Part shown: in pieces, positions 6,449-40,867 of the stretch | How positions within the stretch are numbered: the first letter of the stretch is position 1 | How the letters are laid out: every line of letters begins with the position of its first letter | Assembly: GCF_012027645.1 (NCBI RefSeq) | Contig: NZ_SNUU01000001.1 | Location: 1,736,001-1,800,000 of the forward strand | Direction: 5' to 3' | Source: Thermococcus sp. 18S1 | GTDB taxonomy: Archaea > Methanobacteriota_B > Thermococci > Thermococcales > Thermococcaceae | Length of the DNA stretch: 64,000 nucleotides | The notes under the pieces: model-generated | Told to the model about the DNA's origin: nothing | The model's input: the letters and a program-made list of their open reading frames with translations, nothing else | The model's database searches: none | Made by a program: the position numbers and the translations under genes

Positions 6449-7122
6449 GTTTACGCAGAACATAGTTGTCTAGAAACCAATCTGAATATTATAAACTTCA
6501 ACGTCCTCCACCGTTTACGCAGAACATAGTTGTCTAGAAACATCACCCTCACCGTCAAAGCCCTCGAAGGGAACAAAACAAAGTTTACGCAGAACATAGT
6601 TGTCTAGAAACTTCTGACTTCCTTGAGGATCCTCCCACGACCCCCTTTTCCTAGGTTTACGCAGAACATAGTTGTCTAGAAACCCGCAACTCCTCCAAAA
6701 CCTTCCGCTCATAATACCTCCTATCAAAGTTTACGCAGAACATAGTTGTCTAGAAACGCGTACCGGTGCCACCTCACTATCTGCCACACGATGTTCATAG
6801 TTTACGCAGAACATAGTTGTCTAGAAACTTCTTGAGCGATCTTCAAAGTGCTTAGTGCGGTCAGAGCTGTAGCGTTTACGCAGAACATAGTTGTCTAGAA
6901 ACGTCCCCTGAGTTAGAGGTGGCCTTTATCTCAAAGCTTCTTCCAGAGGGTTTACGCAGAACATAGTTGTCTAGAAACTTGGAATCGCGGCTTTGAGGAT
7001 CTTCTCCCGAAGGCTAGCTTTCGTTTACGCAGAACATAGTTGTCTAGAAACTGAGGAGCATGTGGAATCTATTCCTGAACCCTTCCCCCTCTCGTTTACG
7101 CAGAACATAGTTGTCCGGGGTT
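6449..7122 (+). CRISPR. CRISPR array, 29-bp repeat, 9 spacers
   Basis: Repeats start at 6449, 6513, 6583, 6655, 6729, 6800, 6874, 6950, 7023 and 7094. The first nine are identical 29-mers (GTTTACGCAGAACATAG then TTGTCTAGAAAC). The tenth keeps only the first 22 bases (7094-7115) and then diverges, marking the leader-distal end. Spacer lengths are 35, 41, 43, 45, 42, 45, 47, 44 and 42 bases. The repeat ends in GAAAC, so transcription on the + strand would give crRNAs with the usual 8-nt repeat-derived 5' tag after Cas6 cutting. No cas6, cas1 or cas2 is in the window. Confidence 0.98.
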
Positions 7123-35785: not shown

Positions 35786-36814
35786 TCACCTCCGCCTTTT
35801 TAGGAATAACGCAAGCAGGGTCACCGCTACTATTCCAACAATGCCGTAGAAGACGTAGCCAGCGGAACTTTCCTGGCCCGAGTATTCCAAGGTTTCTACC
35901 TCTCCAAAATCCGCGTTAGTATCGTAGAAGCCGATTCCGTAGGTGTAAAGAACGCCCTCTTTCTTGTGGTTGCGGCTCATGTACATTCCCCATTGGTCCA
36001 TGAAATACACCATCTTTATCCCACAGGCCGCCAGGTCGGGGGTTGTGGGGAAGAATCCGGTGACGAACATTCCGGAGGAGCCATCGAAGTACATCACGGC
36101 GTCCGTCCCGGAGAACGAAACCTCACCTACGGGGGTCTTTATCGCCCCGCCCCCGCCTGTTCTGACGTAGACGATGGGCTTTGAGAAGTTGGCGGTGCTG
36201 GTTACCACGCTCAGGTCCAAATCAGTAACGTTCACCACCTTGGAGACCGAATTACCGGAAAACCCGATCAGCTGAAAAGGCTCACCAACCGCTATCGGGT
36301 CGTTCCCCAAGTCGTCCCAGAGGAAGGTATGCCCGTAGTTCACTCCCTCCGTGTCGAACACTGCATTGTCGCTTTTCCTAATTCTGTAGGTGCATGAATA
36401 GTCAATCCGAGAAAGCGTGAATACCGTTTCGTTTTCAAGTTTCGTCTGATTTATGACCGCCGAGTCCCGCCATATCCTCACAATCTTCGGGCCGAACTCT
36501 TTCAGGGTGACGTTGAATGCCCGAAGGGTCATTCTGACCACAAGGTATTCCCTGGTCTCTGACGTTATGTTGAAGGTCAGGAAGGTGTCTCCGTAGGCGG
36601 AGATTACCGCGTAGGTGCCGTTAAGGTCGATTGTTATATCCGCAGTGGAGATGGTCATGTTCCTGGCCGCGTACTGGCGTGCAATCTCCTCGTTTCTCAG
36701 GGAAGCGTACTCCATGTACACACCTGGCTTGGCCCAGTACGGAGTTGCGGCAGTCAGGGGAAGCTCCAGCAGCACTAACACAACGAGGACGGCAGTTTTT
36801 AACGCCCGTCTCAT
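35786..36814 (-). CDS. Ectodomain paralogue C (YWAKPGVY family)
   Basis: Third of three tandem paralogues, 342 residues. Signal peptide (KTAVLVVLVLLELPLTAA) followed at once by TPYWAKPGVYMEYAS, then an extracytoplasmic domain with about eight N-X-S/T sites, the shared GHTFLWDD and FYDTNADFGEVE segments, a C-terminal span (VFYGIVGIVAVTLLALFL) and a KRRR stop-transfer tail. No family name recognised. ATG 36814 overlaps the previous gene's stop (ATGA) and follows GGGGTG; the longer frame runs into that gene. Confidence 0.82.
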   Translation of the reverse strand: MRRALKTAVLVVLVLLELPLTAATPYWAKPGVYMEYASLRNEEIARQYAARNMTISTADITIDLNGTYAVISAYGDTFLTFNITSETREYLVVRMTLRAFNVTLKEFGPKIVRIWRDSAVINQTKLENETVFTLSRIDYSCTYRIRKSDNAVFDTEGVNYGHTFLWDDLGNDPIAVGEPFQLIGFSGNSVSKVVNVTDLDLSVVTSTANFSKPIVYVRTGGGGAIKTPVGEVSFSGTDAVMYFDGSSGMFVTGFFPTTPDLAACGIKMVYFMDQWGMYMSRNHKKEGVLYTYGIGFYDTNADFGEVETLEYSGQESSAGYVFYGIVGIVAVTLLALFLKRRR

Positions 36815-37899
36815 TGCCTGTGCACCCCCATAAAGGCGTTCATCAAGGCGATTCCCAGGATGACTAACAGCACGTAGAACGCGTACTCCCAAGGGGTACG
36901 TTCCCGGTTGAATTGAACTTCCTCGACGGTTCCAAGGTCCGCGTTTGTATCGTAGAGCTGGAGGACGGGATACACGGAGTAGTCCGCCTTCACCTCGTTG
37001 AGGTAGCACCCCTTGAGGTCGCTGAAGAGCGCGTAGACTATGCCGGCGGTCCTGATGTCCGCGGGGGGTATCAGCATGTCGCCGGCGAGGGTTATCCCGC
37101 TGGCGGGGTCGTAAGTGAATCCACCGACGATTTCATCGCCGCCCGTTCCAAAGGGACACACCTTCCGGTCGCCGGCAAAAAAGCACACCTGAATTGGGCC
37201 GGGATTCCTCTGAACCAGCACGACCCTGCCGATTGGAGGGCCAAAGGTATCGTGGTACGTCACGAGCTTCTTGTCTATCCCGACGGTTCCGTTGAGGTAG
37301 AGGGACGGCGCGACGGGGGTGAGGTTCACGTAGGGGATATCGCCAATGTCTTCGGTGGGGTCGTACCAGAGGAACGTGTGCCCGTAAGTCCTCCCGTCCA
37401 GTCCGATGACCGCACCGTCCCGCTTTCTTATGTGGTAGCTCCCCGTGATTTCCAGCGATTTCATGGCAATCTTGTACTCCACGACCCCAGACCACCCTGC
37501 CCTCCTCGTGCTGAATGAAACCACCTCTGACTCGTCCCAGAATGCCGGCAGGTCGGTACCGTTCTCCAGAATGACATCAACGGTAACGTTGTGGGCCGTT
37601 AGCCGGAAGGCCACTTCCAGATGGGTTCCGTTGTCGCTATCTATCCGGAAGGCGAGAAACACGTCCCCTGTCGCGTGAATGTTGAACAGGGCCCCGCTGT
37701 GGTTGTAGAACAGTATCATTGTCATAGGGCGCTCCTTAACTCCCAGGGACTCCTTGTACTGCACGTACGGCTCATACGTAAGGGCGGCGTACTCAACGTA
37801 AACCCCGGGCTTGGCCCAATATGGAGCCGCGAGCGCTGAATGGAGGCCTCCGATGAGGACGAACACTGCCACTAACATTGAGGGAATGACGTTCCTCAT
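36811..37899 (-). CDS. Ectodomain paralogue B (YWAKPGVY family)
   Basis: Second paralogue, 362 residues, same layout: signal peptide, APYWAKPGVYVEYAALTYEP, a strand-rich glycosylatable domain with YGHTFLWYDPTED, LYDTNADLGTVEEV near the end, then one membrane span (YAFYVLLVILGIALM) with a short tail. It adds a Cys pair (VCFFAGDRKVC) and a single Cys (KGCYLNE) that the others lack. ATG 37899 overlaps the stop of paralogue A by 4 bases; frames further upstream lie inside A. Confidence 0.82.
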   Translation of the reverse strand: MRNVIPSMLVAVFVLIGGLHSALAAPYWAKPGVYVEYAALTYEPYVQYKESLGVKERPMTMILFYNHSGALFNIHATGDVFLAFRIDSDNGTHLEVAFRLTAHNVTVDVILENGTDLPAFWDESEVVSFSTRRAGWSGVVEYKIAMKSLEITGSYHIRKRDGAVIGLDGRTYGHTFLWYDPTEDIGDIPYVNLTPVAPSLYLNGTVGIDKKLVTYHDTFGPPIGRVVLVQRNPGPIQVCFFAGDRKVCPFGTGGDEIVGGFTYDPASGITLAGDMLIPPADIRTAGIVYALFSDLKGCYLNEVKADYSVYPVLQLYDTNADLGTVEEVQFNRERTPWEYAFYVLLVILGIALMNAFMGVHRQ

Positions 37900-38969
37900 T
37901 TTGATTTCCTCCCGCCTCTTGCCGCCACGATAGAGCCTAGGAAAATCAAAGACCCCCAGAACGCGTACTTCCACGGCGTTTTAGCCTTTGAGAACGGCAC
38001 CTCTCCCACTCCCTGAAACTCAGCGTTGGTATCGTAGAGCGGTAGCAAACCGGCCCATGAAAGGTCCTTCTCCACCATCTGGTCGTAGGCAACACGTTCG
38101 TCCATGAAAGATGCAAAGGGGATTCCTATGGCGGCAAAGTCAGGGGATATCAGTATTGAGATAGTAGTGGGAGATAATACCACTCCCGTGGTGGGGTCAT
38201 AGCACAAGTCCCCCGGAGTCTGGGTGGTGAACTCCACAAGACCCTCCATGACAAGTGGTGGTCCCAGGAGAGACAGCATGGCAGTGGGCGGCCCAAATTC
38301 TCCGTAGTATGTTTTCGTGGGTTTATCCCTCACGGACACCTTCTCGACTTTCATCGTCCAGTTCTGGGTGGGAAAAACCACGAAGGTCTCGTTCTCCTGC
38401 GGGACCAGACCGGGATCGGTATCAATCCAGAGGAAAGTGTGACCATAGTGGGTTCCGTTCGGGCTGAAAACGGCACCATCGCTCTCACGTATTCTGTAAA
38501 CACCCTCAATCCTGAGGGAACGGAGGTACACCTTGTATTCACGGGTACCGGAATTGCTCGGGGTTGGTATGGTTTCAACTTTTATGACCTCGTTTTGTTC
38601 CCAAATCGGGCTTAGGTTCTCTCCAGTTGGGACGGTGACTTTAACCGTTACGTTGCTCATGTCAATACGGACGCCGACTGTTAGATAACCGTCAGTCTCC
38701 TCCAGAATAGTGAACTTGAGGTAAGTGTCGTTGTACGCGTAGATTTTGTAGGAAGCGTTGTGGAAAAGGTAAACAAGAAACGCAGTCCTTTGCTCGGTTG
38801 AGTACTCCTGGGAGAGCTGATACTGGATATATGGGTCGTACCTCATAGCCGCGTACTCAACGTAGACTCCAGGCTTGGCCCAGTAAGGCTTCGCACTTGA
38901 GAAGGGGAGGGACGTAATCATCAACAACGTGATTACAAGCACAATAAATTTGGCACCATTTAGTTTCAT
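37896..38969 (-). CDS. Ectodomain paralogue A (YWAKPGVY family)
   Basis: First paralogue, 357 residues. Signal peptide (KFIVLVITLLMITSLPFS), KPYWAKPGVYVEYAAMRYDP, the shared HYGHTFLWIDTD and LYDTNAEFQGVGEV, a C-terminal span (YAFWGSLIFLGSIVAA) and a basic RGGRKSK tail. The three copies arose by tandem duplication but have diverged widely between the common motifs. GGAGGGTATTACA precedes the ATG. It lies 16 bases after the interrupted small secreted gene and heads the run of overlapping genes that ends with the ABC ATPase. Confidence 0.82.
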   Translation of the reverse strand: MKLNGAKFIVLVITLLMITSLPFSSAKPYWAKPGVYVEYAAMRYDPYIQYQLSQEYSTEQRTAFLVYLFHNASYKIYAYNDTYLKFTILEETDGYLTVGVRIDMSNVTVKVTVPTGENLSPIWEQNEVIKVETIPTPSNSGTREYKVYLRSLRIEGVYRIRESDGAVFSPNGTHYGHTFLWIDTDPGLVPQENETFVVFPTQNWTMKVEKVSVRDKPTKTYYGEFGPPTAMLSLLGPPLVMEGLVEFTTQTPGDLCYDPTTGVVLSPTTISILISPDFAAIGIPFASFMDERVAYDQMVEKDLSWAGLLPLYDTNAEFQGVGEVPFSKAKTPWKYAFWGSLIFLGSIVAARGGRKSK

Positions 38970-38985
38970 TGTAATACCCTCCGTG

Positions 38986-39195
38986 TTATGTGAGTCCTCC
39001 TGTTCCTATCCTGTAGGTTATCTCATAGTTGGTTCTGGGATTCTGGACGTCGTACTTGACTCCGACCTCCGCATAGGCCTAGCCGTACTTTATGGAGGTG
39101 TAGTCATGCACCTCTGTAACAGCCCAAGTCGTCGCTGCCGCGAATCCTGCCGCCACTACCAGCAGGCCGAACAACACGGCAACCAGCTTCTTCAT
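38986..39195 (-). pseudogene. Small secreted protein with in-frame TAG
   Basis: A 69-codon frame encodes a signal peptide (MKKLVAVLFGLLVVAAGFAA) and then TTWAVTEVHDYTSIKYG. TAG follows at codon 39 (39081-39079), and the frame continues AYAEVGVKYDVQNP to TAA at 38986. The part after TAG is open for 30 codons and ends just before the ribosome site of the next gene, so a single nonsense change (for example TAC to TAG) is the simplest reading. Either a 38-residue secreted peptide or an interrupted 69-residue one results. There is no sign of pyrrolysine genes in the window. Likely the first gene of the ABC operon. Confidence 0.6.
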
Positions 39196-39468
39196 GGTGC
39201 CGACCCTCCTGCCCGAGGGGCAGTCAATACGCCCAACCGGGCGATCGATAATACCTTTAACTAATATTTAACTTTTACTTCGAAGTTAAGGTGCAGATTT
39301 CAAAAAAAAATCGACCATGCTGAACATAGAAGAGGCATGGTGCAAATAAGGGAGCGAATTACTTCAAGTTAATAACCAGGTTATGCTAGAATTGCCGAAG
39401 TTATTTAACAAAATGTTTCACCCTTATGGAAAAATTTCGGCCTCCAAAAATGATGAATGGGTATCGAA
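39196..39468. other. Intergenic region with promoter and inverted repeats
   Basis: AT-rich stretch upstream of the small secreted gene. On the minus strand GTTAAATATTAGTT (near 39255-39268) is a possible TATA region, and ACTTCGAAGT (near 39275-39290) is a palindrome beside it, placed like an operator. Further right, ACCATGC and GCATGGT (about 39313-39341) form a stem with a 15-base loop. No gene seen. Confidence 0.45.
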
Positions 39469-39492
39469 TTTCGAACCTTCAGCTCCACGTCT
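39469..39492. repeat. Left 24-bp direct repeat (att-like)
   Basis: Identical to 39990-40013. Read on the minus strand it carries the last codons and stop of mptA plus 10 bases beyond. It lies just past the toxin gene. Together the two copies enclose about 500 bp that holds only a toxin-antitoxin pair. Confidence 0.85.
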
Positions 39493-39496
39493 TCTT

Positions 39497-39772
39497 CTAT
39501 AGGTCATCCCCGTAAACGTTCTCCCTCTTGCCGACTTTTAGGATTTTGACAACTCTATCTTCCTTCAGGTACTCGAAGATTACTCGATACTGTCCAACGC
39601 GTAGGCGGTAAACGTTCCCATATCCCTTGAGCTTTTGGACGTCTAGGTGGGCCAGAGGAAAGAAGACAAGCTTTGAGATCCTGTCCTTTATCATGTTTCT
39701 CTCGTTTTGAGGGATTCCTCGAAGTTCTTTCAGGGCTTTTTTGCTTATCAGAACCCTGTTCTCAAAGCTCAT
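39497..39772 (-). CDS. RelE/ParE-type toxin
   Basis: Toxin of 91 residues with the RelE fold: ALKELRGIPQNERNMIKDRI helix, then LKGYGNVYRLRVGQYRVIFE and RVVKILKVGKRENVY. The R-X-R/Y pattern in the last strands fits a ribosome-dependent mRNA interferase. The ATG lies within the antitoxin 3' end (11-base overlap), the usual antitoxin-first order. It ends 4 bases before the left direct repeat. Confidence 0.9.
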   Translation of the reverse strand: MSFENRVLISKKALKELRGIPQNERNMIKDRISKLVFFPLAHLDVQKLKGYGNVYRLRVGQYRVIFEYLKEDRVVKILKVGKRENVYGDDL

Positions 39773-39947
39773 CTTTCACCACGTCCCATTCGAGGAACTC
39801 GTCAGTTCTGCGCTCCTCGATGGCTTCTCTCTCCCACTTTTCCGGTTCAGACTCCTCAATGAGCTGAAGGTTAACATCCACGAGCTCCTTCAGAAACCGT
39901 TCTATCTCCTCTATCCGGTGGATAATCTCGCTGAGAGTGGCCTCCAT
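39762..39947 (-). CDS. Antitoxin partner of the RelE-type toxin
   Basis: Acidic helical protein of 61 residues (IIHRIEEIERFLKELVDVNL, then EREAIEERRTDEFLEWDV). No DNA-binding domain is obvious, as in several archaeal RelB-type antitoxins. GAGGTGAGAGA precedes the ATG. It overlaps the toxin start by 11 bases. Confidence 0.85.
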   Translation of the reverse strand: MEATLSEIIHRIEEIERFLKELVDVNLQLIEESEPEKWEREAIEERRTDEFLEWDVVKDEL

Positions 39948-39989
39948 TCTCTCACCTCGGGTATTGTTAGGGATTCAAATAATTAAAAT

Positions 39990-40013
39990 TTTCGAACCTT
40001 CAGCTCCACGTCT
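39990..40013. repeat. Right 24-bp direct repeat (mptA 3' end)
   Basis: Exact copy of 39469-39492 (T-run, then CGAACCTTCAGCTCCACG, then TCT). Here it overlaps the end of mptA: codons for the last four residues, stop TGA at 40002-40000, and 10 bases downstream. This is the intact gene-associated copy. Confidence 0.85.
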
Positions 40014-40806
40014 CCGCTATGACGTCGTGCTTGTGGATGCTCTCGTTGCTGATCACCCTCACGTGTATCTTCCCGTTGAAGCGCTCCTTCGCCCTGGCGA
40101 ATATCTCACGCGCGACGTCCTCGACGAACTTGGGATTCGCGAACATCCCCTGAACCACGGCGTTCTCGTCTATCGTCTTCAGCAGGGTGTAGGTCGGATG
40201 GCTGAACGAACTCTCGACTACGTCGATCATATCCTCCAGCGCTATCTCCTCATCAAAAGCAGTCCTGACCTCAAGCTCGCCTATAGCTCTCTGTATGTGA
40301 GTCTTCCCGTCGTTGTTGGCCATCGCGTGCGGGCAGGCGGTGTTTCCGATGACCTTGACACGGAGAACCTTCTCAAAGCTTCCGTCGTAGTGCTTTATAA
40401 CGCCCACTTCGACGTCGTAGGGCTCGTAGGTGGTCCTTCCGCTCGCAGGGGTTTCCCGCGGGATGATGAGGTGGGTTCTTATCCAGACCTCGGCGCGCTT
40501 GTGCGGGTGCTTGCCCTCCAGGCGGCCGATTATCGCCTTCCCGAGCTCCTCGAGCGAGGAATGGGCCTCCATGACCTCCTCCTCAACGGCCTCGCTCATG
40601 GCCTCGGTTATGCTCTCCACCAGCCGGCTCATGTGGATTCCCTTCTTCTCCTCCGGGACGTCGATGGTTATCTCGAAGAGCGGGAGGAACGTGTAAACCT
40701 TTCCCTTCCAGTTTATCTTCGCAACGCTCCGCAGGTTGGTAATCCCGACGCGGTGAAGGCGCTCCTTTATCTTTGGGGTCTCCTCCTGGGTCTCAAATAT
40801 CGGCAT
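40000..40806 (-). CDS. mptA: GTP cyclohydrolase MptA (GCYH-IB/FolE2 family)
   Basis: Opens GTP to a 7,8-dihydroneopterin cyclic phosphate, the first step of archaeal pterin cofactor synthesis. Length 268. Conserved segments are [24 protein letters not shown] (active-site Cys and His) and [23 protein letters not shown] 40806 (MPIFET) is preferred, as GAGGGTGATG lies just before it; GTG 40821 and ATG 40812 are alternatives. Its 3' end is the site of the direct repeat. Confidence 0.93.
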
Positions 40807-40867
40807 CAGCATCACCCTCACTTTTCAGTTAGGTGGTTCTAACCGCGGCCCCTTTTAAAGCTACCCG

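Follow-up and report, generated by a model that had tools for sequence, protein, structure and literature searches.

Two identical 24-bp sequences flank a toxin-antitoxin (TA) pair behind the gene mptA in the 64-kb stretch of Thermococcus DNA analysed here (the window), and this repeat is most likely the scar of recombination at a gene end, not the mark of an integrase. We consider it probable that the TA pair is an allelic cassette that genomes acquire, lose and swap by recombining through the end of mptA. Empty sites, mosaic breakpoints, exchange between species and scars of varying length were all observed.

Organization of the Locus

The features of the locus are the following, with positions in the window:

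37896..38969, minus strand: first of three paralogous secreted-type proteins of block X, carrying the PYWAKPGVYVEYAA motif; no known family
39200..39468, minus strand: leader of block X, non-coding and conserved; aligns at about 80% with that of G044
39469..39492, minus strand: left repeat copy, a displaced duplicate of the mptA 3′ end
39493..39511, minus strand: toxin junction, with the stop codon TAG and the last four codons (GDDL)
39497..39772, minus strand: toxin of the RelE/ParE superfamily, 91 aa (PF05016, E = 7e-11; 1wmi_A, E = 2e-8)
39762..39947, minus strand: presumed antitoxin, 61 aa, from its open reading frame and position
39990..40013, minus strand: right repeat copy, with the final mptA codons, the TGA stop and 10 bases past the stop
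40000..40821, minus strand: mptA, GTP cyclohydrolase IV/MptA (NF010204, E = 7.6e-164), the anchor gene whose 3′ end is duplicated

The two copies are spaced by 521 bp. A first-pass annotation of the window had placed them at these coordinates and had taken the right copy for the true end of mptA including its stop, and on both points it was exact. Read on the minus strand, the right copy is AGACGTGGAGC TGA AGGTTCGAAA, the same sequence which terminates mptA in relatives. Read away from mptA, the left copy is followed directly by the block X leader, as in relatives with an empty site. With up to three mismatches allowed, the 24-bp sequence occurred twice in the 64 kb and never in 100 dinucleotide shuffles. 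Apart from a CRISPR-like array, no other direct repeat of at least 18 bp within 3 kb was found in the window, and none appeared in 20 mononucleotide shuffles. The array lies at positions 6449–7115 and is made of about ten 29-bp repeats (GTTTACGCAGAACATAGTTGTCTAGAAAC).

The enclosed DNA carries the 61-aa open reading frame and the toxin gene and nothing else, in agreement with the earlier description of a RelE-type pair alone with no integrase inside. The toxin scored 43 bits against PF05016 (cut-off 23), which places it in the RelE/ParE superfamily of type II toxins. It also matched 3bpq, E. coli RelE and the closest solved structure, 1wmi (PHS013 of Pyrococcus horikoshii). The 61-aa open reading frame overlaps the toxin start by 11 bp and accompanies every well-preserved toxin of the subfamily in relatives. 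It had no match in Pfam, NCBIfam or PDB, and from its co-inheritance and place it is presumed to encode the antitoxin partner.

Block X extends on the other side of the left copy. In the window (35786–38969, minus strand) it holds three tandem PYWAKPGVYVEYAA paralogs of secreted type beside a membrane-protein gene; those of them that were searched matched no Pfam or NCBIfam family, and the number of paralogs ranges from one to four across species. In the small secreted-type gene at 39079–39195 on the minus strand (MKKLVAVLFG...), codon 39 is an in-frame TAG where the close relative of this gene in G066 has tryptophan, and the gene looks like a pseudogene in the window genome. About 250 nt of the leader are conserved across many species of Thermococcus, and the leader has a block of T-runs. 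It had no match in Rfam, and an RNA element at the site, considered as a candidate, was rejected on the absence of a credible Rfam match.

Alleles Found behind mptA

The DNA behind mptA was compared in about 60 Thermococcus genomes. One genome represented each species, so that gain and loss within a species are indistinguishable in this comparison. Empty sites, which would be expected of an insertion such as the first-pass annotation proposed, were present in related species. In G044, mptA ends with GACGTGGAGC TGAAGGTTCGAAATTCGATA, the same sequence as stands behind the toxin in the window, and the DNA past this end is a leader alignable to the window sequence beyond the left copy. In the empty sites of G047, G066 and G070 the repeat differs by one or two bases, and the empty sites of G014, G071, G054 and G053 carry variant repeats, for example TGAGGTTTGAAACTCGATA. 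Since mptA of these relatives runs through one repeat into the left-flank sequence, the left copy and the DNA beyond it correspond to the mptA-end context of block X. The view of the left copy as a displaced mptA fragment was borne out.

The interval from mptA to an HD-domain gene can hold two blocks, each of them optional. One is the TA pair (about 0.5 kb). The other is block X, made up of the conserved leader, the small secreted-type protein, one to four PYWAKPGVYVEYAA paralogs and further genes. Neither block was present in, for example, G031, G040, G013, G027 and G062. The TA pair alone was found in G023, G042 and G060, and block X alone in, for example, G044, G070, G047, G014 and G071. 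Both blocks were found in G000, G018, G051, G022, G037, G016 and G032, as well as in G052 as far as its contig reaches and in G034, which has only the leader of X. A recognizable displaced mptA end, between TA and X, was seen only in genomes with both blocks or with remnants of both. Decayed TA copies occurred in G022, G060, G029 and G056.

Among the 14 toxins with at least 72% identity, 12 lay directly behind mptA. The other two (G019 and G033) precede the same HD gene. In these genomes (loci L128 and L129) a rearrangement has parted mptA from the TA pair and broken up the neighbourhood from mptA to the HD gene, and transposition of the toxins away from mptA was rejected on this ground. In G057, a displaced fragment of 41 mptA residues had the appearance of a second attachment site; it was rejected as well, the gene being split over two contigs.

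The short join between the toxin and the HD gene (TACTGAGGG..CC..TGAAGCTC) is similar in G023, G019 and G033, which suggests that the arrangement mptA-TA-HD is older than mptA-TA-scar-X. An ancestral pair at this place was what the first-pass annotation had named as speaking against its own reading, and this was found in part. The pair is old at the locus, since G023, G042 and G060 show mptA-TA-HD with no recognizable left repeat and G019 and G033 show TA-HD.

Exchange of the TA Pair between Species

The identity of the TA pair was uncoupled from the relationship of the species. In G018 and G051 the TA pair was 99.3% identical, compared to 85.0% for rpoB, and in G000 and G018 it was 94.5% identical, compared to 86.5% for rpoB and 80.0% for the 5′ part of mptA. 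The close relatives G000 and G034 showed the opposite situation, with 97.1% identity in rpoB but 83.9% in the TA pair. On the rpoB tree, at least 11 changes in presence or absence of the TA pair were counted over 36 genomes; this species tree was built from rpoB alone, and support is weak at many of its deep forks.

A triplet test located the points where the relationship changes. From −900 to −100 in mptA, G000 sided with G034 at 149 informative sites against 6. From −100 to +230 it sided with G018 (2:68 against G034; Fisher p ~1e-47). G000 and G018 hardly differ over the stretch that begins in the last 70–100 bp of mptA and ends at the left copy; beyond it their leaders differ. In G018 and G051 the shared block continues into the leader, which shows that the ends of the exchanged blocks are not fixed. 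The mosaic breakpoints fall in the last 100 bp of mptA. When the TA pair passed from one species to another, part of the end of mptA went with it.

Variable Length of the Displaced mptA End

The scar was longest in G052 and G037, where it contains 28–33 nt of mptA coding sequence followed by the 3′-UTR; its score was reached by none of 2000 shuffles. In the window, G018, G051 and G034, 11 exact coding nucleotides occur together with a plausible decayed extension (p from 0.0025 to 0.0175). The G000-type scar comprises 11–25 nt of mptA. In G022 only 11 nt aligned (p 0.08), and in G016, G032 and G042 no coding scar rose above the chance level when one was looked for. G000, G018, G034 and G022 retain an exact left copy.

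In the window, the extension into the last codons of the toxin rests on a weak local alignment (p = 0.01), and the duplication may plausibly have been longer than 24 bp, with a decayed part reaching into these codons. Toxins ending in GD(D/N)L were found only with the junction type of the window, and the others end in VY or VYS. In view of this pattern and of the weak alignment, the last four residues of the window toxin and its stop may derive from out-of-frame mptA sequence.

The 24-bp identity mixes two parts. The post-stop half is conserved beside the X leader across X genomes generally. The coding half may be recent, gene-converted or undecayed by luck, and the exact left copies could reflect recent events or gene conversion just as readily as the old join which we propose below.

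Origin of the Repeats

The first-pass annotation had read the locus as an insertion at a gene end, made either at a site-specific attachment site or by a staggered break. This reading was supported in part, by the displaced end, the empty sites and the movement between species; a recombinase-type site and a staggered-cut duplication of fixed length were not supported. Site-specific integration at the end of mptA, by an integrase acting in trans on the cassette or on a larger element since lost, would have left attL and attR, and would explain why identical repeats lie at a gene end, why the element side restores this end and why empty sites exist. However, the cassette has two genes only, neither of them for an integrase or other recombinase, and no inverted arms were found at its ends. 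The repeat, which had been expected to recur beside integrases or other cassettes, was seen with no other cargo and at no other locus in the 94 Thermococcales genomes searched, nor in viral contigs. Two-mismatch matches away from mptA in G007, G010, G011 and G027 were taken as chance; that in G056 is a real partial left copy. No close relative of the toxin was present on the plasmid, phage and viral records and viral contigs searched, and no second mptA end was seen on the far side of block X within the 6 kb read. A constant crossover core was not found across hosts either, as scar length varies and the exchanged blocks reach into mptA or into the leader. The tests applied here spoke against an integrase-type element and against a transposon, and we regard integration of this kind as quite improbable.

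A single insertion of the TA pair, in which a staggered break caused the duplication of 24 bp or more at the end of mptA, with later spread by homologous recombination, would agree with the 521-bp spacing common to the window, G018 and G051 and with the TA side starting exactly after TGAAGGTTCGAAA. The pattern has a precedent in restriction-modification genes of Helicobacter (PMC1643837). It is nevertheless an unlikely origin here: the displaced piece varies in length, being longer in G052 and G037, where the 3′-UTR alleles on its two sides differ, and the limits of the exchanged blocks change from one pair of genomes to another. Moreover, G023 lacks the left copy although it has the TA pair with almost the same right flank, and the TA pair precedes the HD gene in genomes without block X. 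It could also be imagined that the left copy was retained for a task of block X, for example as a regulatory site, its likeness to mptA being inherited from an X block directly behind mptA. The post-stop half (GGTTCGAAATTCGATA or close variants) is indeed kept beside the X leader, displaced or not. The coding half, for which there would be no such reason, is decayed or absent in G052, G056, G016 and G032, and the proposal would account for retention and not for origin. We give it very little credence.

We propose instead that the 24-bp repeat is what gene-end recombination left. In this model, the alleles behind mptA in Thermococcus would be interchangeable and consist of nothing, the TA pair, block X or both, and the window would represent a combined allele resulting from the joining of a TA-type and an X-type allele. 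One side of the join would have been made by homologous recombination in mptA, of which mosaics of this kind were seen above. On the other side, we infer an end-joining type junction at the 3′ end of the toxin gene, after which the toxin would have been followed by some 10–35 bp from the end of the mptA gene that belonged to the X allele. With repeats on both flanks and conserved mptA sequence adjacent, general recombination could then gain, lose and exchange the 0.5-kb cassette, and mptA would be left intact every time. Some of the empty sites were probably made by deletion between the repeats. Exchange and loss by general recombination are plausible because a homology of 40 bp is already enough for recombination in Pyrococcus furiosus COM1 (PMC5099854) and because members of the Thermococcales are polyploid (PMC12713403); taken by itself, the 24-bp repeat does not reach the 40 bp tried in P. 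furiosus.

Comparison with Known Systems

It is possible, and we suggest it tentatively, that the locus illustrates a recombinase-free mobility of a minimal TA pair, in which the end of a near-universal gene lies on both flanks, host recombination inserts or removes the pair and the gene is restored. If this is true, in highly recombinogenic archaea a cassette enters and leaves genomes at one place by means of host recombination. The value of the locus is that filled, empty, decayed and mosaic states occur together in one genus, with breakpoints readable within tens of bases.

Integrated elements at gene or tRNA ends bear attL and attR. They resemble the Thermococcus locus in the gene-end repeat and in the restoration of the gene end by the element side, and differ from it in that the Thermococcus locus is without integrase and without a second site and shows scars of variable length. 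The toxin itself shares its superfamily with aRelBE of P. horikoshii (PHS013/PHS014, PDB 1wmi; E = 2e-8). Arginines 58, 60, 65 and 85 of the 1wmi chain align with arginines in the window toxin, whereas the 61-aa partner has no sequence match to the solved antitoxin.

In the way it works, the locus resembles the TA pairs that lie between cistrons in E. coli and the insertions with long target duplication of Helicobacter. The ccd pair on the chromosome of E. coli O157, which lies between folA and apaH, and further intercistronic E. coli pairs (reviewed in PMC7167474) are likewise small TA pairs confined to one intergenic site, where a strain may have the pair, lack it or keep a decaying copy, and where other cargo can lie instead. 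Compared to ccd, the Thermococcus locus is archaeal, is flanked by a duplicated host-gene end and has visible breakpoints in the host gene. The restriction-modification genes of Helicobacter pylori, inserted with long target duplication (Nobusato et al. 2000, as recounted in PMC1643837), are according to that account also mobile addiction-type units lying between direct repeats which are single-copy in empty genomes. The pattern that marks such insertions, direct repeats when the site is filled and one copy when it is empty, was found here as well. In contrast to H. pylori, the unit is a TA pair of 0.5 kb and the repeat varies in length, always at the same gene end.
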